Shown: positions 5,368-52,522 of the stretch, piece after piece | How positions within the stretch are numbered: position 1 is the first letter of the stretch | How the letters are laid out: each line of letters starts with the position of its first letter | Assembly (NCBI RefSeq): GCF_000319225.1 | Contig: NC_019815.1 | Span: forward strand, 248,001 to 312,000 | Reading direction: 5' to 3' | Source: Candidatus Kinetoplastibacterium crithidii (ex Angomonas deanei ATCC 30255) | Lineage (GTDB): Bacteria > Pseudomonadota > Gammaproteobacteria > Burkholderiales > Burkholderiaceae_B | DNA: 64,000 nt | Position numbers and translations under genes: made by a program | Notes under the pieces: model-generated | Told to the model about the DNA's origin: nothing | Databases searched by the model: none | What the model saw: only the letters and a program-made list of their open reading frames with translations

Positions 5368-8245
5368 TTATGTATAATGTTTTTTTATTTTATCAATTTG
5401 ACTGCTAACATTATTAATAGTCAATTGAAATTTTTCTAGTCTATTTTTTTCTTGATCTATAATATGTTCAGGAGCATTTTTCATAAAATTACTATTTTGC
5501 AATTTTAGATTACATTTATCAATTTCCTCCATTAGCTTTTTTTGTTCTTTTTCTAATCTCAATAATTCCAAATTAATATCTATTTTTATGTCTAACATCA
5601 AATATGTTTCGCCTACTATTTGCACAGGAGCTTCTAATTTAGGGATATCATTTACTATATCTATACTTTTTAGCTTTGCAAAATGCATTATATAAGGTGA
5701 ATTGCGTTTTAATTTTGTAATATTTCCTTTTGCTAATAAAGGAATTTTATCAGCAGGGGATAGATTCATTGCTCCTCTTAGTGTCCTTACTGCATCAATT
5801 TGTGATTTGAGTTCAATAAAATCTTTTTCTATTGCTAAATTTATTTTATTTCTGTTTTCTTTTGGATATTCTTGTGTAGAAATACTTATAAACACATTTT
5901 TATTATGATAATCATTGAAAAATAACGATACTTTTTGCCATAATTCCTCTGTAATAAAAGGTATAATTGGATGTGCTAATCTTAATACTTCTTCTAAGAC
6001 AATCAATAATATTTTTTTAGTGCTACTTTGTTCTTTTTCTGAAAATTGTTTTATTTGTACTTTTGCTATTTCTAAATACCAATCACAAAACTCATCCCAA
6101 AAAAAATTTGTAGATAGCGTTAGCTACATTATCAAATCGATATTCATCATATGCATGTTTTACTTCTATAATAGTATTTTGTAATCTTGAAATAATCCAT
6201 TGGTCAGCAAAAGAAAAGTGCGTATTATTATCTATATCATTCTTTGATATTTTGTAATCCTCTTCTACATTTAATAATACAAATCTTGTTGCGTTCCATA
6301 ATTTATTACAGAAGTTTCTATAGCCCTCACATCGCTTTATATCAAAGTTTATATCACGACCTAAAGTTGCATAAGATGACATTGTGAATCTTAATGCATC
6401 TGTTCCTACTCCTTTGATGCCTTCTGGAAACTGTTTTTTAGTAAGTTGTTTTATTTTTTCAGCATGTTTAGGATTTAATAAGCCTGAAGTTCTTTTTTGC
6501 ACTAAACTTTCTATTTCTATGCCATCTATCAGATCTAGTGGATCTAAAGTATTACCCTTAGATTTGCTCATTTTCTTGCCTTCAGAATCTCGTATTAATC
6601 CATGGACATATATATTTTTGAATGGTATTTTTCCAGTCATATGTTTTGTAAGCATTACCATTCGAGCAACCCAAAAAAATATAATATCAAAACCAGTTAC
6701 TAATACGTTTGAAGGTAGATATTTTTGCATATCACTTGTTTCATTAGGCCATCCCATAGTAGTAAAAGGAATCAATCCAGAAGAAAACCATGTATCTAGT
6801 ACATCTTCATCTCGTTTTAGAACGCCCTTCACACCAGCTAGAGATGCTTTTTGATAAGCTTCTTGTTCATTGTGAGCTACAAATATTTGGCCGTCTTCTG
6901 AATACCATGCTGGAATTTGATGACCCCACCATAGCTGTCTTGATATACACCAATCTTGTATGTTTACTAACCATTGTTTATAAGTGTTTTTCCAATTATC
7001 TGGGTAGAACTTTATTTCTTCTTTTTCTATAACTTCTAGAGCTATCTCGGAAAGACTCTTACCGGGATTTATGCTGCTGTCTGGGGCTAACTTAGTAGTA
7101 GATACAAACCATTGATCAGTCAACATAGGTTCTAAGACAACTCCAGTTCTATCTCCCACTGGCTGGACAATTTTGTGAGGTTCAGTTTTTATCAAAAAAT
7201 TTGTATTATCTAAATTTTTTATTACTAACTCTCTTGCTTGATAGCGTTCTAATCCTTGAAATTTTTCAGGAACATTCTCATTTAGATGTGCATCTTTAGT
7301 AAAAATTGAAATTAATGGCAAATTATTTCTAATTGCACACTGGTAATCATTGAAATCATGAGCTGCAGTTATTTTTACACAACCAGTTCCAAAATTTATA
7401 TCAACAAAATCATCTGATATAACTGGAATTTTTCTATTAGTAAGAGGAATATAAACATTTTTTCCTACTAAATGTTTATATCTATCATCATCAGGATGGA
7501 CACATATAGCATTATCTGCAAATATTGTTTCTGGGCGAGTTGTAGCTATAACTAAATAGTTAGAATTGTCTTCATTCTGTTCTTCTATGTTATATTTTAT
7601 ATACCACATAAAAGAATCTACTTCTTCCATTTCAACTTCTAAATCTGATACAGCTGTAAGAAGTTTTGGGTCCCAATTGACTAATTTTTTTCCTCTATAT
7701 ATTAAACCTTGTTCATAGAGTCTTATGAAAGTCTCTATAACTCCAATAGACATGTTTTCGTCCATTGTAAAATATTCACGATCCCAATTTGCAGAAATTC
7801 CAAGGCGTTTTATTTGATCAGTAATAATATTTCCAGATTTTTCTTTCCATTTCCATATTTCTTTAATAAATCTTTCTTTACCTATGGCATATTTAGATGT
7901 ATTTTCCTTTTCTAATTGTCGTTCTACCACTAGTTGTGTTGCTATTCCAGCATGATCCGTACCTGGAACGAAAATAGTATTTTTTCCTAACATCCTATTA
8001 TATCTTATTAAACAATCCATTATGGTTTGGTTAAAAGCATGACCCATATGTAGAGTTCCAGTCACATTAGGAGGAGGGAATTGTATAGAATAGTTATCTT
8101 GTGGTTTATTTAGTCTACCTAAGTTATTCTTTTCTTCAAAACATCCATTTCTATACCATTCTCTATACCATTTATTTTCTATTTCTGATGGTTCAAAACT
8201 TTTATGTATATTATTCTTAATATTTTTTTCTGATTCTGTAATCAT
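5368..8245 (-). CDS. valS: Valyl-tRNA synthetase, frame interrupted at an 8-base homopolymer
   Basis: Charges tRNA-Val and edits misactivated threonine. Class I motifs are clear: [14 protein letters not shown] near residue 57 (HIGH signature) and [14 protein letters not shown] near 555. The frame starting at 8245 stops at 6092, right after a run of eight A (6099-6106 on the + strand; T8 in the coding strand). Reading the run as seven bases continues as [17 protein letters not shown] into the downstream frame, which is open to 5368 and holds the anticodon-binding remainder and the C-terminal coiled coil. The joined protein would be about 958 residues, normal for ValRS. With no other valS in view, complete inactivation is unlikely; assembly error or slippage is the likelier explanation. 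Confidence 0.93.
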
Positions 8246-8477
8246 TGAATATAATTCCGATAATGCTTATTTCAACTTAAAATGTGTATAATAATTAGAC
8301 CTTATATTATATAGGTTTAACTAATATTTTAATAATTTTAATTATAGTTGGTTTGATGTATTTTTATTTTATAGTATAAAGATAAACTAATAGAACTATA
8401 AAAATCAAAAATAATTAGATTGTTATTTTATTGTATGTTTTTGTTTTATATTGAAAATTAAAAAATTAGGAATAAAA

Positions 8478-8909
8478 ATGGCAATTCAACGTACTTTATC
8501 AATAATAAAACCTGATGCAGTGTCTAAAAATTGTATTGGGAAAATTATATCTCGTTTTGAAGACAATGGTTTATCTGTAGTTGCTTCACGTTTTCATAAA
8601 TTATCTACTTGTGAGGCAGAATCATTTTACTCTGTGCATAAGGAACGTTCTTTTTTTAGAGATTTGATAAATTTTATGATTTCAGGGCCTGTGTTTATCC
8701 AAGTTTTAGAAGGAGAAAATGCTGTACAGATTAATCGTAATATTATGGGTGATACTGATCCAAAGAAAGCAAAAAAAGGAACAATTAGAGCTGACTTTGC
8801 CGACAGTATAGATGCTAATGCTGTACATGGTTCTGATTCAGAAGAAAATGCAAAGAATGAAATAGCTTTTTTCTTTTCTGAGATGGAAATCCATTCTCAT
8901 AAATTATAA
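8478..8909 (+). CDS. ndk: Nucleoside diphosphate kinase
   Basis: Transfers the gamma phosphate between nucleoside triphosphates and diphosphates through a phosphohistidine. The N-terminus [15 protein letters not shown] and the active-site block [18 protein letters not shown] (catalytic His in NAVHGSD) are typical. I use the ATG at 8478, giving 143 residues, the usual length. It is preceded by AGGAAT, which can act as ribosome site; the upstream in-frame TTG at 8451 would add nine atypical residues. rlmN follows after 8 bases, as in other betaproteobacteria. Confidence 0.96.
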
Positions 8910-8917
8910 TATTTTCT

Positions 8918-10039
8918 ATGGAAGATAATTTTCTGATTAACCTGTTGGGTATAGATGAGCTGTCTTTAAGAAGAATCTTAGAAGAATGCGATTGTTATAG
9001 CAATTATAGAATTTCTCAATTGAAGAATTGGATTCATAGACGTCAAGTTAGTTCTTTTGATGAGATGACTAATCTATCTATGAAATTACGTGATTATTTG
9101 AAGACTATAGCTAAAATAGAAGCGATGCCATTAAAAACACAGCAATTTTCTATGGATGGAACTAGAAAATGGTTATTTGATGCTGGTTTTGATAATGCAG
9201 TTGAGACAGTTTTTATACCTGATAGCAATAGAAACACTCTTTGCATATCTAGTCAAGCAGGTTGTGCCGTAAATTGTAGTTTTTGTTTTACTGGGCAACA
9301 AGGATTTAATCGTAATTTGACTACTAGTGAGATTATTGGTCAGTTATGGTGGGCGCAAAAAAATATAAATAATGATTTTTTTTCTGGAAATCTAGATAAA
9401 TCTATTATCAACTCTCCTAAAATAACTAATATAGTAATGATGGGAATGGGAGAGCCTTTATTAAACTACAGCCAGGTTATTCCAGCTTTGCGTTTGATGA
9501 TGGATGAAAATTCATATGCTTTATCAAAAAGAAAAATAACCTTATCTACATCAGGTATAGTTCCTATGATTGATAAGTTGGTGAATGATTGTCCTGTTTC
9601 TTTGGCTATTTCTTTGCATGCTCCTAATGATGAATTAAGGGATAAATTAATACCAATAAATAAAAAATATCCATTACAAGAACTGATGAAGTCTTGTCGG
9701 AACTATGTGTCTTATGCTCCTAGAGATTTTATTACATTTGAATATTGCATGCTAGATAATATAAATGATTCAGATAAACATGCATTTGAATTGATTGAAT
9801 TAGTAAGAACTATTAAATGTAAAATAAATTTAATACCATTTAACTCTTTTCCTAATTCCAATTTGAAAAGATCTACACAAAATAGAATTTTGTCTTTTGT
9901 AAAAATATTAAATTCTCAAGGAATTGTTACGACAGTAAGGAAAACACGAGGTGATGATATAAATGCAGCATGTGGTCAATTAGCAGGTAGTATTAAAAAT
10001 ATTACTAAGATTAAGACTCATGAATCTATAAAGCTATAA
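8918..10039 (+). CDS. rlmN: Dual-specificity 23S rRNA/tRNA adenine-C2 methyltransferase RlmN
   Basis: Radical-SAM enzyme that methylates C2 of A2503 in 23S rRNA and A37 of some tRNAs. The cluster-binding CxxxCxxC is visible as CAVNCSFCFTG near residue 115. The N-terminal block FDEMTNLSMKLRDYL and the C-terminal ACGQLAG with its catalytic cysteine are present. Length (373) is typical. A run of eight T at 9376-9383 inside the gene leaves the frame intact, a useful control for the interrupted genes. A strong hairpin follows the stop. Confidence 0.97.
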   Translation: MEDNFLINLLGIDELSLRRILEECDCYSNYRISQLKNWIHRRQVSSFDEMTNLSMKLRDYLKTIAKIEAMPLKTQQFSMDGTRKWLFDAGFDNAVETVFIPDSNRNTLCISSQAGCAVNCSFCFTGQQGFNRNLTTSEIIGQLWWAQKNINNDFFSGNLDKSIINSPKITNIVMMGMGEPLLNYSQVIPALRLMMDENSYALSKRKITLSTSGIVPMIDKLVNDCPVSLAISLHAPNDELRDKLIPINKKYPLQELMKSCRNYVSYAPRDFITFEYCMLDNINDSDKHAFELIELVRTIKCKINLIPFNSFPNSNLKRSTQNRILSFVKILNSQGIVTTVRKTRGDDINAACGQLAGSIKNITKIKTHESIKL

Positions 10040-12283: not shown

Positions 12284-12289
12284 AATTAT

Positions 12290-13415: not shown

Positions 13416-14751
13416 GTGTCTTATAAACCAATAGTTTCGATAGTAGGAAGAGCAAATGTAGGTAAGTCTACTTTGTTTAATCGTTTAACAAAAACAAAAA
13501 ATGCATTAGTGGCTGATTTTCCAGGTTTAACGCGTGATAGACATTATGGAGAAGCTCATTTTGCATCATACAATTTTATTGTGATTGATACTGGTGGCCT
13601 TGATGTTCATTCTAAAGATCAATTTTCTTTGAAAATTGCTTCTCAAACCAATCAAGCTATATTAGAGTCTGATATTATTATATTTTTGCTTGATGGTCGT
13701 TCAGGAATATGTTCTCAAGATTATGAAATTGCTAAATTATTACGTAAATTTTCCGATAAACGTATATTATTAGCTATTAATAAATCAGAAGGAATGAACT
13801 TAAGTAATTTTAGCAATGAATTTTATGAGTTAGGTTTGGGTAAGCCATATTTGATTTCTTCATCTCATGGTGATGGTATTTACCATTTAATTGAAGATTC
13901 ATTAAGTGGGTTCTCGCAAACTGATGTTGATGAGAATTCAATTGTAGAATCAAATTCTTCTATTAAATTGGCTATAATTGGCAAACCAAATGTTGGAAAA
14001 TCTACATTAATTAATTCATTTTTAGGAGAAGAGAGGCTAATTGCTTTTGATATGCCAGGTACTACTAAAGATTCTATAAATGTTGATTTCAAGTTTGATG
14101 ATAGGAAATATATATTGGTAGATACGGCAGGTATGCGTCGTAAGAGTAGGGTGATAAATTATATTGAAAAATTCTCAGTAATAAAAACTATTCAGGCAAT
14201 AGAATCTAGTGATGTTGTTTTGTTAGTTATAGATGCAAATGAGGAAATTTCTGATCAAGATGCTCATATGGCTGGCTTTATTTTAGAATCAGGAAAAGCA
14301 ATTGTCATAGCTTTTAATAAATGTGACACCATAGAAAAAGAAAAATTAAAGAATCTTGAAAAATCTTTTAGAAGAAAAATGCATTTCCTGTCATTTGCTA
14401 AATTACATATGATTTCAGCATTAAAAAAATATCATATTAATGATTTTTTTATCTATAAATGAGGCTTATGATTCTTCGTTTGCTAATTTATCTACACCAA
14501 AACTTAATAAGTTACTTAAAATAGCTATTACTAAACAACCGCCTCCTAAAAAAAATATAATTAGACCAAAAATGCGTTATGCTCATCAAGGTGGTCAGAA
14601 TCCTCCTATTATTGTAATTCATGGAAATTCTCTCGAACATATTTCTAGTTCTTATATCAGGTATCTTGAATCATTTTTCAGGAGAGAGTTGTCTTTAAAA
14701 GGTACACCGTTACGAATTGAATTTAAATCATCAAAAAATCCATATATTTAG
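13416..14751 (+). CDS. der: Ribosome-assembly GTPase Der (EngA), frame interrupted near the C-terminal domain
   Basis: Double GTPase needed for 50S assembly. Both G1 loops are visible (GRANVGKST near residue 10, GKPNVGKST near 189) with their DxxG (DTGG, DTAG) and NKxD-type (AINKSE, AFNKCD) motifs. The first frame uses a GTG start at 13416 and stops at 14462 after a run of seven T (14444-14450). Reading six T gives HINDFLSINEAYDSS, which continues into the second frame with the KH-like domain (YAHQGGQNPPIIVIHGN) and ends at 14751. The joined product is about 444 residues, close to betaproteobacterial Der. The normally essential role argues against simple loss. Confidence 0.93.
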
Positions 14752-15367: not shown

Positions 15368-16459
15368 ATGAGATCTTTAATAGTTGGAGTCAATTTAGGC
15401 GGTGTTTTTTTTGATGATAATTTAAAAGAATTCTTTATGCTAGCTCAATCAGCTGGGGCCTTAGTAGCAGATCATGTAGTTGTTAAGAGAGATGTTCCTG
15501 ATAAAAAATTTTTTATAGGATCAGGGAAAGTAGAAGAAATATCATATTTGATAACAGAACTTTCCATAGAAATAGTCTTGTTTGATACTTCCTTATCTCC
15601 ATCGCAACAAAGAAATCTTGAGTTAAGATGGGGAGTTAGAGTAGTTGATAGAGTTGCTTTAATCTTAGATATATTCGCCATCAGAGCTAAAAGTCACGAA
15701 GGAAAGCTTCAAGTTGAGTTAGCACAATTGCAATATTTATCTACAAGATTAACTAGGCTATGGACTCATTTGGAGCGTCAGCGTGGTGGAATTGGGATGA
15801 GAGGTCCTGGTGAATCACAGTTGGAGATGGATCGGCGTATTATATCTAGCAAAGTTAAGGTTTTAAAAGAGCGTTTAAAGAAAATAAAATCCAGAAGAGT
15901 ATCTCAGAGAAATCTTCGTGAACGTAATAGGGTGTTTTCAATTTCTTTAGTTGGTTATACCAATTCAGGAAAATCTACATTATTTAATTTATTAACAAAA
16001 GAAAAAACTTATGTTGCTGATCAATTGTTTGCAACATTAGAAACAACATCTCGTCGTATTTGGGTAGGCACTTCTAATAAAGATATTGTTATTTCTGATA
16101 CAGTAGGCTTTATACGTGATTTACCACATAATTTGATAGATTCATTTCATGCGACACTACACGAAGCCATAAGCGCTGATTTGCTGCTTCATGTAGTTGA
16201 TTTTTCCAATGAAAATTACCAAGAACAAATAGATAATGTTAATAATGTCATTAAAGAAATAGGAGCATCTGATATACCAGTTATTATGATTTATAATAAG
16301 ATTGATTTATCTAATGTACAACCTAGGGTAGAATATGGTTTAAATAATACTATTGATAGTGTTTTTTTGAGTGCAGCGAAAAACACTGGAGTAGATGGTT
16401 TAACTGAAGCGATAATTAATGCTAGTAATACAATGGGGCAAGATATTGAGAATTTTTAA
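15368..16459 (+). CDS. hflX: Ribosome-splitting GTPase HflX
   Basis: Obg-HflX GTPase that binds the 50S subunit and can split stalled ribosomes. The N-terminal domain is followed by the glycine-rich linker RGGIGMRGPGESQLE, then G1 (GYTNSGKST near residue 196), the ATLETTSRR switch region, G3 (DTVGFI) and NKID. Length 363 is typical. A T8 run at 15405-15412 is read without a phase change. Its 3' end overlaps the likely hflK start. Confidence 0.96.
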   Translation: MRSLIVGVNLGGVFFDDNLKEFFMLAQSAGALVADHVVVKRDVPDKKFFIGSGKVEEISYLITELSIEIVLFDTSLSPSQQRNLELRWGVRVVDRVALILDIFAIRAKSHEGKLQVELAQLQYLSTRLTRLWTHLERQRGGIGMRGPGESQLEMDRRIISSKVKVLKERLKKIKSRRVSQRNLRERNRVFSISLVGYTNSGKSTLFNLLTKEKTYVADQLFATLETTSRRIWVGTSNKDIVISDTVGFIRDLPHNLIDSFHATLHEAISADLLLHVVDFSNENYQEQIDNVNNVIKEIGASDIPVIMIYNKIDLSNVQPRVEYGLNNTIDSVFLSAAKNTGVDGLTEAIINASNTMGQDIENF

Positions 16460-17698
16460 TATATTTAATTTTGATGATTCTAATTGGGGACGAGGAAAAA
16501 ACAAAGGTTTTTCTGATGAGTCTAAAAAAAATAGTAATCCACCAGATTTAGATGATGTTTGGAATGATTTAAGCAAGCGTTTTTCTAATATTTTTGGTAA
16601 GTACGGAAAAAAAATAGTAATGATAAGTTACCAGATTTTAATTTTAAAAATTCTGGTATTTTCTTTTGCTTGTTTATTTTATTTGCCTCTATTATCTGGT
16701 TATCTAGTAGTTTTTTTGTAGTTAAAGAAGGTCAAGTTTCTGTGATTACTCGATTTGGAAAATATTATAGAACAGCACAACCAGGTTTTAGATGGCATTT
16801 GCCGTATCCTATTGAAAATCATGAAATGGTAAATCTATCTCATTTGCGTACTTTTGAGGTAGGTTTTCGTGGAAATTCTCAAAATAAAGTTCTGTCTGAA
16901 TCTTTAATGCTTACAACAGATGAAAATATTGTAGATATGCAATTTGTTGTCCAATATCGATTAAGCGCAAATGGAGCTATTAATTACTTATTTAAAATCA
17001 GAGATCCTGATGAGTCTGTTAAACAAGCTGCCGAAACTGCTATGAGAGAAATAGTAGGTAAGAAAAATATGGATTTTGTTTTGTATGAAGGTAGGACTGC
17101 TGTTACTTTTGAAGTTCAGAAACTCATGCAAAATATTTTAAATAATTACAATACTGGCATTCAAATAACTGCAGTTGCTATACAAAATGTTCAGCCGCCA
17201 GAACAAGTTCAGGCTGCTTTTGATGACGCAGTGAAGGCAGGTCAAGATAGAGAAAGAAAAATTAATGAAGGATACGCTTATGCAAATCAGGTTATACCAT
17301 TGGCTAGTGGTCAATCTTCTAGATATTTAGAACAAGCAGAGGCCTATAAAGCTACGGTAATAGGAGAAGCTAAAGGTGAGTCATCTCGTTTTTATAGTAT
17401 ATTAAAAGAATATGAAAAGGCGCCTGATGTAACAAGGACTCGTTTATATCTAGAGGCTATGGAAAGTATTTTTTCTAAGGCTAATAAGTTGATGATTGAT
17501 TCTAAGAATAATAATGTTTTATTGTTACCTATAGACGCATTAAATAATAAAATTAATGATTCTTTTATAACTAAGAAAAATGATTTATTAGAAGAAAAAG
17601 TAGAAAAAAAGCTTTATGATATTGATAATTCAAATGATAGTTTTAAAACTATCAATAAATCATCAGATAAGATAAAGCGTGATCGTTCATTATACTAA
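16446..17698 (+). CDS. hflK: HflK, SPFH membrane protein of the HflKC complex, frame interrupted
   Basis: HflK and HflC form a large inner-membrane cage around FtsH. The upstream frame gives a cytoplasmic tail (DDSNWGRGKNKGF, NPPDLDDVWNDLS), typical of betaproteobacterial HflK, and then loses phase. The downstream frame holds the membrane helix, FVVKEGQVSVITRFGKYY, the SPFH domain and NVQPPEQVQAAFDDAVKAGQDRE. The change occurs at eight A (16607-16614): reading nine gives YGKKNSNDKLPDFNFKN and leads into the helix. The start is uncertain: TTG at 16446 (LRIFNIFNFDDS, as in Bordetella) or ATG at 16419. The joined product is about 417 residues. Confidence 0.9.
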
Positions 17699-21561: not shown

Positions 21562-23378
21562 TTGATTCCAAAATATTTTATCCAAGATTTATCGTTTAGA
21601 CTAGATATAGTAGAAGTTATAGGCTCTTATATTTTATTAAAAAAATCAGGGTCTAGTTTAGTTGGTCTTTGTCCATTTCATTCGGAAAAAAGTCCTTCTT
21701 TTACTGTAAGTCAAACAAAAAAAATATATCATTGTTTTGGTTGTGGAGCTCACGGTGATTCCATTACGTTCGTAATGGAATATCTTGGTCTTAGTTTTGC
21801 TGATGCAGTAAAACAACTAGCGTCTTCTATTGGTGTGACAATTCCAGAAGAAGGTAGAAATTCTAATTTTTTGTCTAATGAACAAAAAAAGGAAAGAGAG
21901 TTGTTGAGCATAATGAACAAAGCTCAAGAATATTATCATTCATATCTGTTAAAATCCTCTAATGCTCTGAATTATTTATCAAAAAGGAAAATTCATAAAG
22001 AAACAATAGAATTATTTGGAATTGGTTGGTCAGGTTTTGAGACTAATTTTTTATCTAAATGTTTTGATAATTATAACGATGCTTCTCTCAAAGAGGTGGG
22101 TCTCGTTATAGACGAAACAAGGAGATATGATAGATTTAGACAGAGAATAATGTTTCCAATAAGAAATTATTATGGCAATGTTATCGGTTTTGGAGGTAGG
22201 ACAATTGACAGAAGACTTCCAAAATATTTAAATTCTCCGGAGACTATATTGTTTTCTAAAAGAAAAGAATTATATGGTTTGTGGGAATCTAGGAAAAATA
22301 TAAAAAAACAAGGATTTGTATTAGTAGTTGAGGGATATATAGATGTTATTATCCTAACACAATACGGTATTACTAATGTAGTGGCAACACTAGGAACTTC
22401 AATAAGTTCTGATCATATAATAAAATTATTTTCAATAACTGATAAAATAATTTTCAGTTTTGACGGTGATGATGCTGGTCATAGGGCAGCATGGAGAGCA
22501 TTATTAATTTGTTTAAAAGAATTAAAAGATAATCGTGAAATAAGATTCTTAATTTTAAAAGAAAACTATGATCCTGATTCTTATATTTTAGAATATGGAG
22601 TTCATAAGTTTAAAGAAATAATAGATAATTCTATTTCTTTGTCAAAGTTTTTTATTAATGAAATGCAGAAAAAACATAATATTTTAGAGGCAGAAGGTAG
22701 AGTATCTTGCTGGAATGAGTCTCTTTCTTTGTTAAATTCTATGCCTCTTAATGCTTTTCGTATACAGTTTGAGAAAGAAATTGCTAACTTATTAAATTTT
22801 AATAATAATGATATTAGACTGTTATCATCTATTAGCAATAGAAATACAAATAATTTGCAAAAACATTATTTTAAGAATGAAAATAATGTGAATTATAGTG
22901 AAATTGAAAAAAAATAAACCTTTATAATTCAAGTCGTAATATTCAAAAAGCTCCATCTCTTGCTAAACATTTACTGAATCTAATAGTATTTAATTTGCAA
23001 TATATTGATGACATGGTTGGGATTCAACAATTAGAGATTTTAGAAAAACAACCTGATTTAAAATATATAAAGGATCTAATTTTAATTATTCAAGAAAAAA
23101 ATATTAAAACTTTAGAGGGATTGCAAGAATCATTACCAAAAGATTCTGAATTGTATAAAATGGTTTCTAATATTAGTAATCAAGCTACTCACAAAGAGGT
23201 TTTATTACCAGATCCAGTCAAAGAATGGGAAGATGCTTTATTATTAATAGAACATGAATATTTGAAAAAAGAAATTAACTTGCTTGTAGAGCAAGGTTTA
23301 ACCTCTGATAATGATATAAATAAGTATAAAGAATTGTCTAATAAATTGTTTTTGATTAAAAAAGGTAATTTAAATTAA
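21562..23378 (+). CDS. dnaG: DNA primase, frame interrupted at an A8 run
   Basis: Synthesises RNA primers at the replication fork with DnaB. The N-terminal zinc ribbon is visible (CPFHSEKSPSF, then CFGCGAHGD), followed by the catalytic core with TOPRIM residues (VVEGYIDVI and FSFDGDDAGHRAA). Translation likely starts at TTG 21562. The first frame ends at 22917 at once after eight A (22907-22914). Reading nine A opens the frame into INLYNSSRNIQKAPSLAKHLL and on through the DnaB-binding helical domain to 23378, about 605 residues in all. Since primase is essential, the C-terminal domain is probably made, by slippage or because the run length is wrong in this assembly. Confidence 0.93.
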
Positions 23379-26717: not shown

Positions 26718-28546
26718 ATGTTTCCTAAATTATTAGATAATATTCATCTTCCATCTGATCTAAGAAAATTAAATTTTGATTGTCTTAGTAAGTTATCTGA
26801 GGAATTACGACAAGAAGTTTTGGAGATTGTTTCTAAAACTGGGGGGCATCTTTCATCTAGTTTAGGAGTTATAGAATTAACAATAGCATTACATTATGTA
26901 TTTGATACACCAAATGATATTATTATTTGGGATGTAGGACATCAATCTTATCCTCATAAAATATTAACTGGAAGAAGAGAAAAAATGGGGACTTTACGCC
27001 AGAGGTATGGGATATCTGGATTTCCAAATAGATCTGAATCTTGTTATGATGCCTTTGGTACTGCTCATTCTTCCACTTCTATTTCTGCTGCGTTAGGAAT
27101 GGCTTATGCAGCTAGCAAAAAAAATTAAAGAATAGACAACATATAGCAGTAATTGGTGATGGTTCGATTTCTTCTGGTATGGCTTTTGAAGCTATAAATA
27201 ATGCTGGTGTAATGAAAGATATAAATCTTTTGGTTATTCTTAATGATAATCATATGTCTATTTCTCCACCAGTAGGAGCTTTGAATAAATATTTCAATAA
27301 TTTAATGCAAGGTCGTTTTTACGCTAATGTTAAAGCTGTTGATGATATAGTACATATTGAGCATCAAAAAATTAATAATACTAGCTTTGTGACATTTTTT
27401 GAGGAATTTGGTTTTAAATATTATGGGCCAATTGATGGTCATAATGTAACTAATTTAGCTAATGTGTTGCGAAACATCAAACAAGAATCTGGATTAAATT
27501 TTTTGCACATTGTAACAAAAAAAGGCAAAGGTTATAAGTTAGCTGAGAAAGACCCTATATTATACCATGGTCCAAGCAAATTCGATTTAGATATTGGCAT
27601 CATAAAATCAAAAAAAACTTGCAATAAAACTTTTACTCAAGTTTTTAGCAATTGGGTTTGTGATATGGCAACCTATGATGATAGTTTAATAATAATTACT
27701 CCTGCTATGAGAGAAGGTAGTGGGTTGGTAGAATTTGAGAGTCTTTTCCCAAGTAGATATTTTGATGTTGGCATATCAGAACAACATGCAATTACATTTG
27801 CAGCTGGTATGGCATGTGATGGATTAAAACCAGTAGTAGCAATTTATTCTACTTTTTTACAAAGAGGTTATGATCAATTAGTACATGATGTAGCTATTCA
27901 AAATCTAGATGTAACTTTTGCAGTTGATAGAGCTGGTTTAGTGGGAGCTGATGGAGCTACACATGCTGGTAATTATGATATATCTTTTTTAAGATGTATC
28001 CCAAATTTAATAATCGCTACACCTTCTGATGAAAATGAACAACGTTTACTATTAACTACATGTTATCTATATAATGGTCCTGCGATTGTTAGGTATCCTA
28101 GAGGTGAAGGGTTTGGTGTAAATATTGATGAAGAATTAAATTCTTTAGATATTGGTAAAGGAATAGTTAGAAAATTTGGTAAAAATATTGCTATTCTTGT
28201 ATTTGGTACTTTATTTAATACAGCAAATATTGTTGCTGATTCAATGAATTTAACTATTGCTGATATGAGATTTGTTAAGCCAATTGATAAAGAATTAATT
28301 ATTAGTTTATCTAAAACTCATAGAGCTATTGTTACTTTAGAAGATAATTCTATAATGGGAGGAGCTGGTAGTGCGGTACTAGAAGTTTTGCATGAAAATA
28401 ATTTATATATTCCAGTTCTTCAATTGGGTATACCTGATAGATTTATCGATCATGGGGATGTTAAACAATTAATTGCTGAAATAGGATTAGATAGTAATGG
28501 AATAGAACTTTCTATTAAATCTACTTTTCATAAATTATTGTTATAG
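26718..28546 (+). CDS. dxs: 1-deoxy-D-xylulose-5-phosphate synthase, frame interrupted at an A8 run
   Basis: Thiamine-dependent first enzyme of the MEP isoprenoid pathway, also supplying DXP for PLP and thiamine. The first frame ([54 protein letters not shown]) stops at 27128. The break is at eight A (27117-27124): with nine, it reads [18 protein letters not shown] and continues through [11 protein letters not shown], which holds the thiamine-diphosphate GDG motif, to 28546. The rest has the transketolase pyrimidine domain ([17 protein letters not shown]) and C-terminal domain. The joined product is about 609 residues, near the usual 620. Confidence 0.93.
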
Positions 28547-36050: not shown

Positions 36051-36057
36051 CATTGTA

Positions 36058-37054: not shown

Positions 37055-39813
37055 TTAAAAAATATTCAAGGCTTTTGAAACAATTTCAAAAGTATTTCTT
37101 GATAAATCATCACGTTTGTAAACAATCTCAATAGCATCATACATTTGAGATTTTAATTCAGGGGTAAAACAATACCAATTATCTAATGCTCTAGCTAATC
37201 TAGCTGCAACTTCTGGGTTTATCTTATCTAGATTAATGACTTGTTCAGCCCAATATTGATATCCTGAGCCATCATTTTTATGCATATGTAAATAATTTTT
37301 GAAACAAAATTGGAAAACTAATGATCTTACTCTATTTGGGTTTTGAGGAAAAAAATCAGGATGTTTCATCAAACATTTAATTTCTTTAATTCCAGTACAT
37401 CTTGAGGAAGATTGTATTGCAAACCACTTATCTATTACTAAATTATTGTTTTTCCATTTATTATAAAAATATAATTTTGCTTTATTTGCTTTATTTTCAT
37501 CTCCCAAAATTAATAAATTCGATAGCATCGCAATAGAATCTGTCATATTCTTAGAAGTATAGAAGTAGTTTTCAATTTTTTCCTCAATATAATTATTCCC
37601 ACTTGCTAGAAGATATTTTATAATCAAGTTTCTTAATAAACGATTGTTTGCTAATCTAGGATCATATATTTCTGAAGTAACTATTTCTTCATTTTCAAGC
37701 TTTTCTAACTTAGACAAAAAGTAGTCTGACAATTCATATCCTATTGTTTTAATTAATCCGTAACGAGTTTCTGTTATTAAAATAGGATCTATGATTTTTA
37801 CATGATTGAATAATATACTCTCATTAGGAATAGTTAAGAGTTTTGCACAATAGGAATTATCTAGGTTTTTGTTTGATATTATTTTTTTAAAAGTTTCAAA
37901 ATATTCTTCATTAATTCTTAAATTAGAACTATTTGTCATATTTTCTAGTATTTTGCGAATACTTAACTCTTGAAGAGCTTCCCAACGAGCAAAATAATCT
38001 CTGTCATGGTTAGCTAATATATATAGTTCATTGGTGCTATATTTATAATTCACTTTAACTGGTGCTGAAAAATTTCTCAATAAGGAAGGAATAGGATGAT
38101 TATTTATAGATTTAAAAGTCCAGCTTTGAGTTTTTTTATATAGTTCAAGAATAAAAGTATCTTTAGTATTGTAATAATTTTTATTATCGTCTTCTAATAC
38201 TAAATTTATACTATTTCCGTTGTAATCTAAAAAACCAATAGCAAAAGGTATATGGAAAGGTTTTTTTTCTTTAAAAAAAGTCTGCTTATTGTTTTCTATC
38301 CCAACAAAATCACATTCTTGATTAAGTATAACTGTGCATGTATTTTTATTTTCATCATATTTTATAACTACATTAATAGTAGGAGTGCCTGCTTGTTTAT
38401 ACCAATTCTTAAATATGCTGAAATCGGAATTTTTATTATTGATTGAATTAAATTCTCTTTCTTTATATATAGATTGCATAACATTTAAAAAATCATCGCA
38501 TGTTACTGCTTTACCATCATAAAGACTAAAATATTTATTAATACCTTTTAAAAAATTTTCATAACCTAAGATATTATTTAGCATTCTAATTATTTCTGAT
38601 CCTTTTTCATAAATAGTAGCAGTATAAAAATTACTTATTTCTTGATAATTATCAGGGCGTATAGGGTGTGCCATAGGACCAGAATCCTCTGGAAATTGAT
38701 TTGACCTTAAATTTATAGCATCATCAATACGCTTTACAGCTTTTATAGTTAGTTTTGTTTCTTCATCTTTAACTAAATCAGACATAACATCACTAAAAAA
38801 CTCTTGTTCACGAAAAACAGTAAGGCCCTCTTTTAAACTTAATTGGAACCAGTCTCTGCATGTAACTCGATTCCCTGTCCAATTATGAAAATATTCGTGA
38901 CCTATTACAGTAATTATATTTTCATAATCAGAGTCTGTGGCCGTATTTTCATCTGCCAATATGTATGATGAATTAAAAATATTTAAACCTTTATTTTCCA
39001 TAGCTCCCATATTAAAATCATTGACAGCTACTATCATATATTGATCCAAATCTAATTTTAGATTATATCTATACTCATCCCATCTGATAGCTTTTACTAG
39101 CGAATACATTGCCCATTCTGTTTTATTTTGGAATTTTGGATCACTATAAATTTGTAAAGTTACTACTTTGCCATCAATTGTTTTAATTTTTTTTCTAAAC
39201 ATGAAAATTCACCAACGACTAATGCAAATAAATAACTAGGCTTTGGAAAAGGATCTTCCCAAATGGCTTCCTTTTTTCCATCAGGTAATATTTTTTTACT
39301 TATTAAATTGCCATTAGAAAGTAATGTAGAGTATTTTGCATCTGCAATTAATGTAACTAAATATTTCGACATTACATCAGGTCTATCTGGGAAACAAGTT
39401 ATTTTTCTAAATCCCTCTGGCTCACACTGAGTGATAAAATTTTTATTAGATAAGTACAAGCCCATCATAGTTAAATTTTCTGATGGAAAACATTTTGTTA
39501 TTATTGTTAAAGTCCCAGAATCAGGAAATTGTTTTATAAGCAAAAAATCTTTTTGTACTATATAATTATCCTTACTTAGTTTTTTCTTGTTAAGAATGAT
39601 ATCTATTAATGCTAACTCATTAAAATCTGCATTTAAATATAAGTCATCATCCTGAAATTTTATTTTTCTTTGTATTTCCATTGTATTTGTAACTATAGTA
39701 CAATTTTCATCAAGATTTATTTGCAAATCAACTTTTTGTATGAAAAAAGGAAATTCTCTATAATCAAAGCGATTTATAGTTATTGGTTTTTTAAACTTTT
39801 TTACTGGTAGCAT
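37055..39813 (-). CDS. pepN: Aminopeptidase N (M1 family), frame interrupted at an A8 run
   Basis: Zinc metallo-aminopeptidase that completes cytoplasmic protein breakdown. The frame from 39813 holds the N-terminal saddle domain and stops at 39163; a second frame begins by 39202 and holds GAMENKGLNIF, the zinc site HEYFHNWTGNRVTCRDW and LKEGLTVFREQE. The break is at eight coding-strand A (T8 at 39187-39194 on the + strand). With nine A the protein reads GEFSCLEKKIKTIDGKVV without a gap relative to the family. The joined product is about 919 residues. fbp follows after 10 bases. Confidence 0.92.
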
Positions 39814-42953: not shown

Positions 42954-44055
42954 ATGGCAAAAAAAACATATAAAGAGTTAGTAGTACTTGGAATGTCTGG
43001 TGGAGTTGACTCTTCTGTTGCTGCTTTTATTTTGAAAGAACAAGGTTATAAAGTAGTTGGGTTATTTATGCAAAATTGGGAAGATGATAGTAACGACTCA
43101 TTTTGTAATATCAAAGAAGACCTATTAGATGCAGCAAGTGTAGCTGATTTAATTGGAATAGATTTCGAATATATAAATTTTGCTAAAGAATATAAAGAAA
43201 AAGTTTTTTCTATATTTCTTCAAGAATATTCTATGGGCAGAACTCCAAATCCAGATATTTTATGTAATTCAGAAATAAAGTTTAAAGCTTTTTTGGAGCA
43301 TTCTTTAAAAATTGGCGCTACAAAAATAGCTACTGGACATTATGCTAGAATAAAAAATGAAAATAATAAATTCCAATTACTGAAGGCTGTTGATTCAAAT
43401 AAGGACCAAAGCTATTTTTTATATAAGTTAAATCAAAATCAACTTTCTAGTGCTATTTTTCCTATAGGAAACTTATATAAAACCCAAGTTAGAGAAATAG
43501 CAAAGAAAATAGGTTTACATAATGCTTCTAAAAAAAGACTCTACTGGCATTTGTTTTATTGGAGAAAGACCATTTGCTGATTTTTTAAACAAGTATATAA
43601 AAGAAAAAGAAGGTCCAATATTAACAATTGATGGAAAAGAAATAGGAACTCATAAAGGCGTATTTTTTTATACTATTGGACAGAGAAAGGGATTGGGATT
43701 AGGTGGAATAAAAGGATTCTCTTCACAAAAAAATCCTTGGTATGTATTTAAAAAAGATTTAGATAAAAATATTATTTATGTTGTACAAGATCATGATAAT
43801 AAAATGCTTTACTCTAAAACATTAGAAATAAATGATATTAGTTGGATAAATGGTTTTCCTCCAGATAAAGTAGAGCAAAATGACTATTCATCAAAATCTA
43901 GATATCGACAATCCGAAGCCAAATGTAAAATTAAATTTATTGGTAATGAAAAGGCATTAATTACTTTTTTTGAACCACAATGGGCAATAACAAAAGGACA
44001 ATCTTTAGTTATATATGACAATGATGTATGCTTAGGTGGTGGTATCATTTGTTAA
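42954..44055 (+). CDS. mnmA: tRNA-specific 2-thiouridylase MnmA, frame interrupted at an A7 run
   Basis: Puts sulfur on U34 of Glu/Gln/Lys tRNAs in an ATP-dependent reaction, taking sulfur from the Tus relay (tusA is also present). The P-loop [12 protein letters not shown] and the catalytic cysteine in [12 protein letters not shown] are intact. The first frame stops at 43580; the second contains [19 protein letters not shown] with the other catalytic cysteine and runs to 44055. The change is at seven A (43530-43536): with six the protein reads [13 protein letters not shown], the same spacing as E. coli MnmA. The joined product is about 366 residues, the usual length. Loss of this enzyme would itself affect frame maintenance. 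Confidence 0.92.
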
Positions 44056-45848: not shown

Positions 45849-45919
45849 ATAAATTTGTTTTAGATTAACATTGATAATGTTACATATAACGTTACGGATT
45901 ATATACGGAAATAATTACT

Positions 45920-48103
45920 TTGGCAAAATTAGAAAAAAATAATATTAAATTAAATGAAACAATTCCAAACTGGTTTGATCATAATTTACCTTCGAGAGAA
46001 GAAATTGTTTCTTGCATAAGAAAACACAATAAAAAATTAAATGAACTAGATATAGCAAATTTATTACAAATAAAACAAAAGAAAACTATTACTAGCCTGA
46101 AAAGACGTCTAGCTGCTATGCAAAAGGATGAGCAGATTGTTATTGATAATTTAGGATATATATCAATAAATATAAACAATATTGTTTTAACAGGTAAAGT
46201 TACACTTAAAAATGACGGCACTGGTGTTCTATCAACAAACAGTGAGAAAATTTTTATAAATCACAAGGAAATGCGCAAAGTCTTTCATGGCGATCATGTA
46301 CAAGTAAAAAAAGTAAAATATAACAAAACCTTAAATTGTACAGAAGGGAAAATTTTAGAAGTGTTAGAACGCTCATCTAAAAATATAATAGGTAAAATTA
46401 TCAAAAGAGAAAATAATTTTTATTTAATACCTATAGAACCAAAATACAATAATAAAATTATATTGCCTGATAAAAATTTATCAGAGGGTCAAGTGGTTAT
46501 TATTGATATAATAAAACAACCATCAGTTTATTCATTAGCCGTAGGCAATATAAAAGAGTATATCGGTAATATCAATGATCCTAAGATAGGAACTAAAGTT
46601 TCTTTAGAAAAATTTCATATCAGAAATTCTTTCAATGAAAAAATATTTGAAGAATTAGAAAGCATCACAAATGATATAAGCTCTTTTAAAAAAAATAGAA
46701 CTGATTTGACGAGTTTACCATTTATTACAATAGATGATGAAAATGCTCGTGATTTTGATGATGCATTATTTTGCAAAAAAATAATTGATAAAAATGGAAT
46801 AATTTCATGGGAAGTTTTTGTAGCTATTGCAGATGTATCAGAATATGTAAAACCTGATATGGAAATAAATCAGGAGGCATTTGAGAGAGGGACAAGTATA
46901 TATTTTCCAGAATATGTTGTTCCTATGTTGCCTGAAAAAATATCAAACAATATTTGTTCTTTAATACCTGAAGAAAAAAGATTAGTGCTTGTTTGTCAAT
47001 TTACAGTATCTGAAAGCATACTATCAGATAAAGATCATATAGTTAAAAATTACTCATTTTATCAAGCAATTATCAAATCAAAAGCAAGAATGAGCTATGA
47101 CAGTATAGACAAGTTTATATCTGATAAAAATATTAATATTGACGATGATGTTAAGGTTAATATTGATAATCTTCAACAAGCATATAATATTCTCTCGATA
47201 GCTTCAAAATTAAGAGGGTCTATAGCATTTGAAATGCAAGAAAATAAAATAATTTTTTCAGAAAATGGACACATTGAAAAAGTAGTAAAAAAAGAACGAT
47301 ATATTGCAAATAAAATAGTTGAAGAATGCATGTTAGCCGCAAACAGTTGTGCAGCACACTTCATTTATATAAATAAAAATATCTGTCTATATAGAGTACA
47401 TGACAAACCTTCGAATAGCTCCGTTAATAACTTAACTAAATTTCTAACAACTCAAAATATTAAAATAGATAATTATAATTTTTCTACATCACAAGGCATA
47501 AATAATTTTCTAGAAGACATAAGAGATAGGAATAACTTTAATATTATACAACTAGCCTGTTTGCAGGCAATGCAGCCTGCATCTTATAGCATACATAATA
47601 TAGGTCATTTTGGGTTATCGTATGAATTATATGCTCATTTCACATCTCCAATTAGAAGGTATCCGGATTTATTTAATCATAGGATGATAAAGAAAATAAT
47701 TAACTCGACAAATCATAATCCATTGCATGGAACTTCTAATGATGAACTTATAAAGTTTGGAAATGATATGTCTATCTGTGAGCGGTCTGCAGATGAAGCT
47801 TCTAGATATGCTCATAATTGGATGTTATTAAGTTTTTTAAAAAAATATGAAGGTAAATTTTTCAATGGAATTATAACAAATATTCTAAATTATGGTATGT
47901 TTGTAAATATAGAAAATATGTTTATAGACGGAATGCTACATATATCAGAATTAAAAAAAGAAAAATTTAAATATGATAAAGATATGAACTATTTTTATAA
48001 CAAAGAATCAAAAATATCATATAATTTAGGTGGAAAAATCAGAGTGCTTATTAAGCTTGTGAATATAGAACAAGGGCAAGTTGTACTGGGGTTAGTTAAA
48101 TAA
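45920..48103 (+). CDS. rnr: Ribonuclease R
   Basis: Processive 3'-5' exoribonuclease that can degrade structured RNA and takes part in rRNA quality control. An N-terminal cold-shock/helix-turn-helix region is followed by the RNB catalytic domain with [18 protein letters not shown] (Asp cluster) and [12 protein letters not shown], and a C-terminal S1 domain ([22 protein letters not shown]). 727 residues, shorter than E. coli (about 813) because the basic tail after S1 is missing. The best start is TTG at 45920. rlmB follows after 28 bases, as usual. Confidence 0.94.
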
Positions 48104-48131
48104 TACTATTAACAACAAGGATAATTTATAT

Positions 48132-48872
48132 ATGTCATCTACAAAGACTATAGCTGGATTTCATGCTATTCTTGCCAGACTACATCATTATCCTGAATCT
48201 ATTAAAACCATATATATTGACGCCAAACGTCATGATAAAAGAAGTATTTTTTTATTAGATAAAATAAATAATGTTGGCTGTAAAGTTTGCCATGTTGAAA
48301 CAAATAGACTGGATAATATGACTGGTGGCATGAGACATCAGGGAGTAGTAGCTATATGCAATGAAGTCAAGTTACCTAATGATATAGAAGAAATTCTAGA
48401 TGATCTTCAAGAACCTGCTTTATTGCTAATCCTTGATGGAGTTACTGATCCTCATAATTTAGGAGCATGTTTAAGAACTGCTAATGCTGCTGGTGTACAT
48501 GCTGTTATAGCTCCTCGTAATAGATCAGCTAGTATAAATGATATTGTTTATAAAGTATCATCTGGAGCAGCAGATATCACACCATATATTATGGTAACTA
48601 ATCTCGCTAGAGTTTTGAGAGATTTAAAAGATATGGATGTATGTCTAGTTGGTACTGATGAAAATGCTGTAAACAATATATATACAGTAAATGCTACTAA
48701 ATCCATGGCATGGGTACTGGGGTCTGAAGGTAAAGGTATGCGCCGTCTAACTAGAGAATCATGTGACTATTTAGTTAATATACCTATGTTAGGGGCGGTA
48801 GAAAGTTTAAATGTAAGTGTAGCTAGTTCTTTATGTTTGTACGAAAGCGTACGTCAAAGAAACTATTGTTAA
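48132..48872 (+). CDS. rlmB: 23S rRNA (guanosine-2'-O)-methyltransferase RlmB
   Basis: SPOUT methyltransferase for G2251 of 23S rRNA. Motifs are [33 protein letters not shown] and [13 protein letters not shown], forming the trefoil knot; GFHAILARL at the start is the L30e-like substrate domain. Length 246. It follows rnr directly. About 150 bases separate it from the HU gene. Confidence 0.96.
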
Positions 48873-49024
48873 ATAGACTGATTGTATGCTTATATGTTTA
48901 TCCAAACAACACTTTAATTTTATTAATTACATCATCTTTAGTAACAGGCTTAATGTTGATATATAATTTGTTATAAACAATTTATTTTTTATAAAATTAG
49001 GAACAATTCTTAGGGGATATTTAT

Positions 49025-49297
49025 ATGAATAAAACCGAGCTTATCGATCAAATAGCTGTTAGTGCTGATATTTCTAAAGCTGCAGCAAACCGTGCGATTG
49101 ATGCTTTTATAAACGTAATCAAAGAAACTATGAAAAAAGGAGATACACTCACTCTAGTTGGATTTGGTTCTTTTGCAGTATCAACAAGAGCAGCTCGTAA
49201 TGGACGAAATCCAAGAACTGGAGAAGTTATTAAAATCAAAAAAACTAGAGTACCAAAATTCAGACCAGGGAAAACATTAAAAGAAGCTGTAAATTAA
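49025..49297 (+). CDS. hup: DNA-binding protein HU
   Basis: Histone-like dimer that bends [23 protein letters not shown] and the arm block [23 protein letters not shown] are canonical. Length 90. Start follows AGGGGATATTT, a good ribosome site. Whether it represents HU-alpha or HU-beta is not meaningful here if it is the sole copy. Confidence 0.96.
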
Positions 49298-49402
49298 CAA
49301 CATTGTTAATCATATTTGTTATGAATATAAAAAATATGATATTATTTACTTTATATAGAATCATTTTTTAAATTTCTATCATTTGGTATGAAATTTATGA
49401 TA

Positions 49403-49478
49403 GGGTGCTTAGCTCAGCTGGTAGAGCGGCGCCCTTACAAGGCGTAGGTCACAGGTTCGATCCCTGTAGCACCCACCA
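49403..49478 (+). tRNA. tRNA-Val (UAC)
   Basis: Seventy-six-base cloverleaf: acceptor GGGTGCT/AGCACCC, D arm GCTC/GAGC, anticodon loop CTTACAA (TAC), T arm CACAG/CTGTA-side with GTTCGATCC, encoded CCA. It is followed within ten bases by a strong hairpin terminator. Confidence 0.95.
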
Positions 49479-49487
49479 TTAAATACG

Positions 49488-49517
49488 AAACAGCTTATTA
49501 CATGTAATAAGCTGTTT
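49488..49517. terminator. Terminator after tRNA-Val, facing argF
   Basis: AAACAGCTTATTAC (49488-49501) and GTAATAAGCTGTTT (49504-49517) form a perfect stem within one continuous palindrome, followed by further T. It sits 10 bases after the tRNA and 16 bases before the argF stop on the other strand, so it can act in both directions. Confidence 0.85.
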
Positions 49518-49532
49518 TTATATACATTAAAA

Positions 49533-50474
49533 TTAGAGTTTTCCCAAAAGCAAGAATTCCATTAAAGCTTTTTGAATATGCAAACGATTTTCAGCTTCAT
49601 CCCATACGACACTTTGTGGGCCTTCTAAAACATCATTTGTTACTTCTTCTCCACGATGTGCTGGTAAACAATGCATAAACAAAGCGTCTGTATTAGCAGA
49701 TGACATCATTTTTGAGTTAACACACCAATCAGAAAAAGCTTTATGACGTATGATATTTTCTTCTTCATATCCCATACTTGTCCATACATCAGTTGTTACA
49801 AGATCTACTCCTTTACAAGCTTCATAAGGGCTGTCAAACTGCCTTAAAATCTTATCAGAAATATTACCTATACGATTTTTTTCCATTTTATAGCCATTAG
49901 GAGCAGAGATATGAAGAGTAAAACCTAAAATCTCTGCTGCTTGCAACCAGGTATAAGACATATTATTAGCATCTCCTATCCATGCAACTTTCTTATTCTC
50001 TATAGAACCTCTATGTTCTATAAATGTAAGAATATCAGCTAATATTTGACATGGATGAAATTCATTAGTTAAACCATTAATAACAGGAACCCTAGAATGT
50101 GCAGCAAAACGCTTCAGTCTTTCTTGCTCAAATGTTCTAATCATCACAATATCGACCATTCTAGATATTACTCTTGCTGTATCTTCAATAGGCTCTGATC
50201 TTCCAAGTTGAGAGTCATTAGAGGTTAAATTAATAGCGCATCCTCCCATTTGATAAATTCCAGCTTCAAAAGATACTCTGGTTCGAGTACTGGCTTTCTC
50301 AAAAATCATAGCTAAAGTTCTGTCATGAAGCGGCATATGCGGTTCATATTTTTTAAATTTATCTTTTATAAAAATAGCTCTATTTAATACATAAATAATT
50401 TCTTCTTTGCTAAAATCTTTTAATTCTAAAAAATGACGCATATTTATTTTTTTATTACTTGAAGAATTAATCAT
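49533..50474 (-). CDS. argF: Ornithine carbamoyltransferase
   Basis: Makes citrulline from ornithine and carbamoyl phosphate in arginine synthesis or a urea-cycle-like route. Carbamoyl-phosphate motif EKASTRTRVSFEAG, ornithine motif HPCQILADILTF and catalytic MHCLPAHRGEEV are intact. I prefer the ATG at 50474, ten bases after GGAG, over GTG at 50480. No other arginine gene is adjacent. In trypanosomatid symbionts this enzyme is known to complement the host pathway, which fits the inferred lifestyle. Confidence 0.95.
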   Translation of the reverse strand: MINSSSNKKINMRHFLELKDFSKEEIIYVLNRAIFIKDKFKKYEPHMPLHDRTLAMIFEKASTRTRVSFEAGIYQMGGCAINLTSNDSQLGRSEPIEDTARVISRMVDIVMIRTFEQERLKRFAAHSRVPVINGLTNEFHPCQILADILTFIEHRGSIENKKVAWIGDANNMSYTWLQAAEILGFTLHISAPNGYKMEKNRIGNISDKILRQFDSPYEACKGVDLVTTDVWTSMGYEEENIIRHKAFSDWCVNSKMMSSANTDALFMHCLPAHRGEEVTNDVLEGPQSVVWDEAENRLHIQKALMEFLLLGKL

Positions 50475-50657
50475 ATTCACCCAGCTCCATTAATTGTTAT
50501 GAAAATAACTATTATTACTATATGTGAGTATTCGTATGTATACTTAAAAATACAAAACATCATACTAATTATACTTAACAAAAAAACATTAATAAAGAAA
50601 CTAAATATTAGTAAAATATTTCTGAATCTTTCATACTAAAATTATTACCACTATACT

Positions 50658-51281
50658 ATGAATAAAATTGATTGCATAAATAACAAATTAGTAATTGCTT
50701 CCAGCAATAAAGAAAAATTAATAGAAATTACAAGTTTTTTTAAAGATTTTGATTTATCTATATATTTGCAGAGCGATTTTGGCATACATACTAATGATGA
50801 ACGTAATAATACTTTTATTGAAAATGCTCTAAATAAGGCTAGACATGTGAGTAGACTCACTGGCCTTCCTTCTTTAGCAGAAGATTCTGGATTATGTGTC
50901 AATTCATTATCAGGAGCCCCAGGTATTTTTTCTGCTAGATACTCCTCTTTTTCAAATAAAGAAAATTCTGATAGTAAATTAAATAATGAATTACTAATAA
51001 AAAATTTAAAAGGACTCGAAGATAGAAGGGCATACTACATTAGTATAGTTGTTATTTTAAGGAATCCTAATGATCATAGGCCATTGATAACAGAAGGTAT
51101 ATTACATGGAGAAATTGTAGAAAAAGCCTCTGGAAATAATGGTTTCGGATATGACCCACATTTTTTTGTGCCTAGCATAGGCAAAACACTTGCTTCTATT
51201 ACGCTATCTGAAAAAAATAAAATTAGTCATAGAGCAAAAGCTTTTGAAAAAATGATTCAGAAATTAAAATTTACAAATTAA
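50658..51281 (+). CDS. rdgB: XTP/dITP diphosphatase RdgB (Ham1 family)
   Basis: Removes non-canonical purine triphosphates from the nucleotide pool. LVIASSNKEKLIEI, LAEDSGLCVNSLSGAPGIFSAR in blocks, and NGFGYDPHFFVP are characteristic. Length 207. It is immediately followed by hemW, as in Bordetella, where rph also precedes it; rph is not seen here. Confidence 0.95.
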   Translation: MNKIDCINNKLVIASSNKEKLIEITSFFKDFDLSIYLQSDFGIHTNDERNNTFIENALNKARHVSRLTGLPSLAEDSGLCVNSLSGAPGIFSARYSSFSNKENSDSKLNNELLIKNLKGLEDRRAYYISIVVILRNPNDHRPLITEGILHGEIVEKASGNNGFGYDPHFFVPSIGKTLASITLSEKNKISHRAKAFEKMIQKLKFTN

Positions 51282-51367
51282 ATTAACAACATTGCTCATG
51301 AAAAAAATAATAAATATATATCAAAAAAAAGATATTTTAGAAATGGGATATAAAGATAATATCAAAA

Positions 51368-52522
51368 ATGTTTTTTTTTAAAACCACCACCATTATCTTT
51401 GTATATACATATACCATGGTGTGTGAGCAAATGTCCTTATTGTGATTTTAATTCGCATTCTATAAAAAACATTAATTCAATACCAGAAGAAGAGTATATA
51501 AATGCTTTAAAAATAGAAATAGAGCAATCATTGCCTTTAGTATGGGGTAGGAAAATAATATCGGTATATATAGGAGGTGGTACTCCAAGCCTTCTAAAGG
51601 CTAGTTCCATAAATAAAATTATGGAATTGCTTAGAACATTTTTTAATTTAAGCTCCCAAATTGAAATAACTATAGAAATGAATCCTGGAACTGTAGATTC
51701 TAGCAAAATCAAAGAATTTGTTACTAGTGGTATAAATAGAATTTCTATAGGAGTACAGAGTTTCAATAATAGCAAATTAAAAATTCTTGGAAGGATTCAT
51801 AATAAATCAGATGCTATTAAAACAATTCAAACAGCTCAATCATTAATTGATAATATTAATATAGATATAATGTTTGCTTTGCCAGGACAAAATATTGAAG
51901 ATTGTTTGATGGATTTGAAAGAACCTATATTATCTGAAGTTAATCATGTATCTATGTATAATTTAACAATAGAAAAAAATACATTATTTGCAAAAAATAC
52001 TCCTGAAAATCTTCCAGATGAAGATAATAGCGCTATAATGCAGGATATAATAGAAAAAAATTATTTGATAAAAACATTATAAGATATGAAATTTCAGCAT
52101 ATTCTAAAGATGGGTTTCAATCAGTGCATAATAAGAACTATTGGACTTTTGGAGATTATTTAGGAATAGGCCCTGGAGCACATAGTAAGCTTTCCTTTCA
52201 AGATCATATCATAAGAATAAAAAGAATATATAATCCAAATCTTTGGATCAAAACTACAATGCAAAATGAAAAGAAATCAAGCAATAAAAAAATATTACAA
52301 ATAAATGAAATACCATTTGAATTTATGCTTAATGCCCTAAGATTAAAAAATGGTGTAAAAAGATCTTTATTTCAAGAACGAACTGGATTGTTTATTAATA
52401 TAATAGATAAACAATTAAAAATAGCTTATGAAAAAAAACTTCTAGAAGAGAACTGTACTAACATAAAAGCAACAGATCTAGGATGGAGGTTTTTAAATAA
52501 CTTACAGGAGATTTTTTTATAA
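51368..52522 (+). CDS. hemW: HemW radical-SAM heme chaperone, frame interrupted at two runs
   Basis: Related to coproporphyrinogen oxidase HemN; delivers heme rather than oxidising it. The cluster motif is [10 protein letters not shown], with IGGGTPSLL. Two breaks are inferred. First, ATG 51368 is followed by nine T (51371-51379); eight would join it to [13 protein letters not shown], the family's usual N-terminus. A TTG start at 51399 is the alternative. Second, the frame stops at 52082; adding one A to the seven-A run (52054-52060) reads [20 protein letters not shown] into the downstream frame ([17 protein letters not shown]) ending at 52522. The joined product is about 384 residues, full length. 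The second break could also lie in the short A run at 52070-52074. Confidence 0.9.

Follow-up and report, generated by a model that had tools for sequence, protein, structure and literature searches.

Single-base breaks at A/T runs in eight conserved genes of the Candidatus Kinetoplastibacterium crithidii assembly are probably homopolymer miscounts

The genome assembly of Candidatus Kinetoplastibacterium crithidii, the bacterial symbiont of Angomonas deanei, contains a stretch of 64,000 nucleotides (positions 248,001–312,000 of a single contig of 821,813 bp), here called the window, in which eight conserved genes are each divided between reading frames. Every division lies at a run of A or T, and genes as central as valS, dnaG and der are among those struck. 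Are these genes whole in the bacterium itself, the breaks having arisen during sequencing? Or, are the frameshifts real, and either rescued when the genes are transcribed or the first stage of gene decay? Here we compare the window with congeneric genomes, with a second assembly and with other parts of the same chromosome.

Break positions, other than the first in hemW, were obtained by protein-to-DNA alignment of the proteins of a congeneric genome of 816,901 bp (G006) against the window. The ORFs of G006 that are at least 100 aa long and have a match in the window served as proxies for genes. Among 46 such proxies, 37 have at least 93% of their length covered by a single frame, 8 are divided between frames, and one runs into the window edge. 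The split genes are valS, der, hflK, dnaG, dxs, pepN, mnmA, and hemW, with nine breaks in all, and family or database matches support all eight names. A preliminary description of this DNA had reported eight genes broken nine times at A/T runs of 7–9 and the rest of the window as intact; the comparison with G006 confirms each of the breaks in its place, and the remainder is indeed unbroken at the level of genes of at least 100 aa. One further split set, at 3179–3650 on the minus strand and opposite the 3' end of an ORF at 731–3364 and an ORF at 3361–3636, was judged spurious.

Five of the split genes are single ORFs in all five congeneric genomes compared (G001, G002, G005, G006, and G007). 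The valS gene (5368–8245, minus strand) is in two frames with the break at an A8 run at 6099–6106, and corresponds to an ORF of 953–964 aa in the relatives; nothing else in the genome scores above the cut-off for this family. The others are on the plus strand. The gene for the EngA GTPase, der (13416–14751), is broken at a T7 run (14444–14450) and has one domain match in the genome. The break in hflK (16419–17698) is at A8 (16607–16614), and the family match is to the second piece only; in one comparison the short first piece had no match in G001, where the split-gene test lists an ORF covering both pieces. The primase gene dnaG (21562–23378) is broken at A8 (22907–22914) and provides the only DNAG_N match in the genome. 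For dxs (26718–28546), with its break at A8 (27117–27124), PF13292 is matched at one other place in the genome, weakly (7.7e-8) and in a 693-aa frame.

The remaining three genes are single ORFs in G006, G005, G001, and G002. The break in pepN (37055–39813, minus strand) is at T8 (39187–39194); the ORF is 901–920 aa in these four relatives and is partly covered in G007. On the plus strand, mnmA (42954–44055) is broken at A7 (43530–43536); like hemW it falls outside the coverage of G007, and it has one further, weak match in the genome, in a 527-aa frame. Also on the plus strand, hemW (51298–52522) is in three pieces, with breaks at T9 (51371–51379) and A7 (52054–52060). The first of these is read from a 5' piece of 27 residues that is similar to the N-terminal part of its G006 counterpart and is ended there by a stop. 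Family and domain searches of the genome found no backup copies of valS, dnaG, or der.

All nine breaks are at A/T runs of 7–9. Chance placement can be excluded because A/T runs of at least 7, together with 2 nt on either side, take up merely 2.5% of the coding bases of the window (p ~4e-15 for nine out of nine). The frequency of breaks per coding A/T run increases with length, from 0/334 at 5 and 0/150 at 6 to 3/92 at 7, 5/29 at 8, and 1/2 at 9. Replication slippage likewise increases with run length, so this trend does not by itself decide between an error and a mutation. The sign of the frame change was computed for eight of the nine breaks; five have one sign and three the opposite. The preliminary description had pointed to six control runs of 8–9 that remain in frame, and had argued from them that run length alone is not enough. 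The six runs are present, and 25 of 30 coding runs of 8 have no break, which bears the argument out; a steeply length-dependent error rate accounts for these unbroken runs as well. The run-length distribution was also considered as a mark of undercalling. The window has 2 runs of 9 as against 7.3 per 64 kb in G006, a difference that is suggestive only, and in all sets the run counts drop steeply beyond 8.

None of the breaks is common to the relatives, be it in the eight genes in G006, G005, G001, and G002 or in the five that are covered in G007 (valS, der, hflK, dnaG, and dxs, all of them whole). In the matching region, the split-gene test produced no sets in G006, G005, or the covered part of G007. 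The sets that it produced in G001 and G002, one in each, are artefacts that match only an ORF antisense to valS. The match of the window to contig 7 of G007 (L112–L114) ends at about 38.4 kb, and the contig itself goes on.

We take G006 to be strain PNG-M02, G007 (with a contig of 125,979 bp) to be TCC2435, and G002 to be the symbiont of S. culicis (820,037 bp). PNG-M02 was assembled from PacBio and Illumina reads, and the TCC2435 assembly, with an N50 of 126 kb, from 454 and Illumina reads (PMC8229890). G001 and G005 come from a 454 project that finished the symbiont genomes, and G002 is from PMC3616161. Four of the five relatives are therefore products of projects that used 454 sequencing, yet none has a real split gene in this region, so that something beyond the platform must have contributed to the breaks of the window.

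The comparison with G006 also shows differences of other kinds. Some genes of G006 have several frame changes each and are open in the genome to which the window belongs (L143:10622–11770 and L160:15756–17760); these are eroded and are not of the single-break kind. In addition, the stretches at about 24–36 kb and 466–476 kb match G006 in the plus orientation (L127, L133 against L143, L137) and most others in the minus orientation, perhaps because the segment between rRNA operons is inverted or because of a join made in assembly.

A second assembly (GCA_000340825.1) is available from strain TCC036E, which is presumably one isolate with the strain of the window. The symbiont of TCC036E is 821,930 bp (PMC8229890), and a protein search with the hemW product of G006 found a protein of 366 aa from a contig of this length (P0002). 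It matches the window at 365 of its 366 residues, with residues 2–212 in one frame and residues 213–366 in another, and it thus crosses the second hemW break without interruption. It starts at a GTG downstream of the first. Since P0002 begins past that break, the first break may be common to both assemblies. No whole valS and no whole dxs from the 821,930-bp contig were among the best 120 of about 8,000 scored rows for either gene, which comprised the piece from the window (717 aa for valS, 455 aa for dxs) and proteins of other strains and species. This is weak evidence because the database is clustered at 90% and may hide copies; the valS and dxs breaks may be present in both assemblies, or the whole copies may be concealed by the clustering. 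The second assembly is described as 454-based too, so that the two could share systematic miscounts. The net difference of 117 bp between the two assemblies cannot be used in this context because the breaks are of mixed sign.

If the genes were no longer in use, their pieces might be expected to have lost the signature of selection. Pieces were taken from either side of the breaks, never joined, and the 27-residue first piece of hemW was left out. Measured against G006, the 16 pieces have a median omega of 0.133 (range 0.048–0.210) and 31 intact genes one of 0.121 (0.024–0.392; p 0.47). By this measure the pieces are as constrained as the intact genes. This speaks against old pseudogene decay, whereas a very recent mutation would look alike.

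Are such breaks found throughout the chromosome? A further 20 stretches outside the window, 316 kb net, of which 283,470 bases could be compared with G006, contain eight broken genes: nuoJ, rluB, tatD, holB, cdsA, rsxB, one copy of tuf, and the malic-enzyme gene. The latter (L130:1–1050) has two one-base differences from G006, of opposite sign and about 180 bases apart, with stops between; one is at a run of 8 and the other at a run of 6 whose counterpart in G006 has 7 bases. The split copy of tuf, encoding elongation factor Tu, is at L135:7768–8956. Five of the nine breaks outside the window are at runs of at least 7 and four are near runs of 5–6, with the one in tuf poorly placed. A frame-changed yaaA (L152) was not counted, having more than one frame change, in both directions of the comparison.

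Breaks are concentrated in and around the window. Of the 123 long coding runs of the window, 9 have a break, as against 5 of 426 in the other stretches (p 0.0008), where the total takes in some 32 kb outside the comparison; eight genes are broken in the 64 kb of the window as against eight in 316 kb elsewhere (p 0.002). Both contrasts are weaker for the inclusion of the malic-enzyme gene, without which p is 0.0003 for runs and 0.001 for genes. Thirteen of the 18 breaks fall at 231.9–331.3 kb, in a sampling that is uneven, with 200–372 kb covered throughout and the remainder as separate stretches of 16–48 kb. Both tatD and holB are split 1.6–1.9 kb beyond the window end, cdsA at 331 kb, and rluB at 232 kb; the loci of neighbouring splits are L149:1625–1860, L150:7295–7360, and L147:15880–15906. 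Most of the 16-kb stretches outside about 232–331 kb have no split genes. The simplest cause of the clustering would be a local problem of assembly quality.

We consider it very probable that most of the nine breaks arose as homopolymer miscounts when the genome of the A. deanei symbiont was assembled from pyrosequencing reads, and the genes are most likely whole in the bacterium itself. This reading is favoured because the breaks are at runs, the relatives are whole, selection has been kept, and one copy of hemW is unbroken at its second break, and also because the signs are mixed and single-copy core genes (valS, dnaG, and der) are struck. For A. deanei and S. culicis, PMC3616161 describes reads from 454-based pyrosequencing and gives the symbiont of the former, Candidatus Kinetoplastibacterium crithidii, as 821,813 bp with 30.96% G+C; the contig studied here was presumably built from those reads. 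Run counts at long A/T runs would then have been wrong in either direction, and more often as the runs lengthened. The miscounts would gather at about 232–331 kb, above all in the window, where the consensus probably rests on fewer or poorer reads, and read depth may be the cause of the clustering. Errors of Roche 454 assemblies are biased to A and T and rise with run length, and at least 20% of genes are possibly frameshifted in low-GC genomes, according to the available text of PMC3277595. The window has in common with the frameshifts described there the A/T bias, the length-linked rate, the unrelated conserved genes that are affected, the low-GC genome, and the 454 project. It differs in that its breaks are locally concentrated, and in that the other assembly from PMC3616161 is clean in the matching region. 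Against miscounts also stand the lack of whole copies of valS and dxs among the matches listed for the second assembly, the start of its hemW protein beyond the first break, the clean 454 relatives in general, and the breaks elsewhere that are near runs of merely 5–6.

Could the frameshifts instead be real, and rescued by transcriptional slippage, through which a share of the mRNA would regain its frame at the A/T runs? There is a precedent in B. vafer, in which eight genes, dnaG and dxs included, are frameshifted in homopolymer tracts, and the report cites demonstrated slippage in Blochmannia and Buchnera (PMC3017870). That genome and the present one are alike in being AT-rich and reduced, in having dnaG and dxs on the list, and in the lack of accelerated evolution; undiminished selection on the pieces fits with rescue, and single-copy core genes, once struck, would need it. 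In Blochmannia, however, a dnaX frameshift is common to two species and a tract of 11 is reported (PMC3017870), whereas the runs here are merely 7–9 and no break is shared with any of the five congeneric genomes in which the gene is covered. The preliminary description had cited the rescue of poly(A) breaks by slippage in AT-rich insect symbionts such as Buchnera and Blochmannia; the present organism, a betaproteobacterial symbiont of a trypanosomatid, is no relative of either and belongs to another class. The two signs, five against three of the eight computed, give no consistent direction, the second hemW break is missing from the second assembly, and slippage offers no evident reason for the regional clustering. 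In the available text of PMC5574713, insertions predominate at runs and no transcription error restored a frame. Our literature search found no paper linking Kinetoplastibacterium with slippage. Of the two readings initially put forward, miscounts in the assembly are thus favoured, and slippage-based expression lacks its usual supports, since no break is common to relatives, the signs are mixed, and the runs are short; we regard it as very improbable. A bolder version, in which slippage has become, within one strain, the sole means of expressing a regional group of core genes (valS, dnaG, der, dxs, and others), with both signs corrected and at A/T runs shorter than the longest tracts of Blochmannia (PMC3017870), is more improbable still.

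Real mutations could also be recent, with the genes of this culture just beginning to decay. The length dependence of replication slippage would suit such an origin. Mostly frameshifted pseudogenes are reported in two sister strains (PMC8229890), and 2–19 pseudogenes in Kinetoplastibacterium species, the K. crithidii assembly used being unstated in the available text of PMC5632650. The pseudogenes of the K. crithidii strains are in the same species group and also have frame changes, but in the window it is core genes that are cleanly broken, and at long runs (compare PMC8229890). Several of the frame-changed genes of G006 are broken more than once, unlike most of those in the window. It is hard to see how a cell could live with eight split genes in 64 kb when valS, dnaG, and der, each in single copy, are among them, and no further damage is seen in genes whose omega is that of intact ones, although very recent events would leave the same picture. 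We see hardly any likelihood in this explanation. A mixture, in which most breaks were miscounted and one or a few (the first in hemW, or those in valS or dxs) are real and strain-wide, is compatible with miscounts as the main cause. The GTG start of P0002 and the missing whole copies of valS and dxs speak for it, tempered by the 90% clustering and by the shared 454 basis already described; on balance we think it unlikely, though it deserves more credence than slippage or decay.

Real breaks would make this a striking example of slippage serving the expression of core genes. With most of them attributed to miscounts, the concern is rather with the use of the sequence. This assembly represents its species in the genome set searched. 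The symbiont serves as a model of organelle origin, and work on its gene loss or its dependence on the host would be misled by the broken calls in valS, dnaG, der, dxs, holB, and others.
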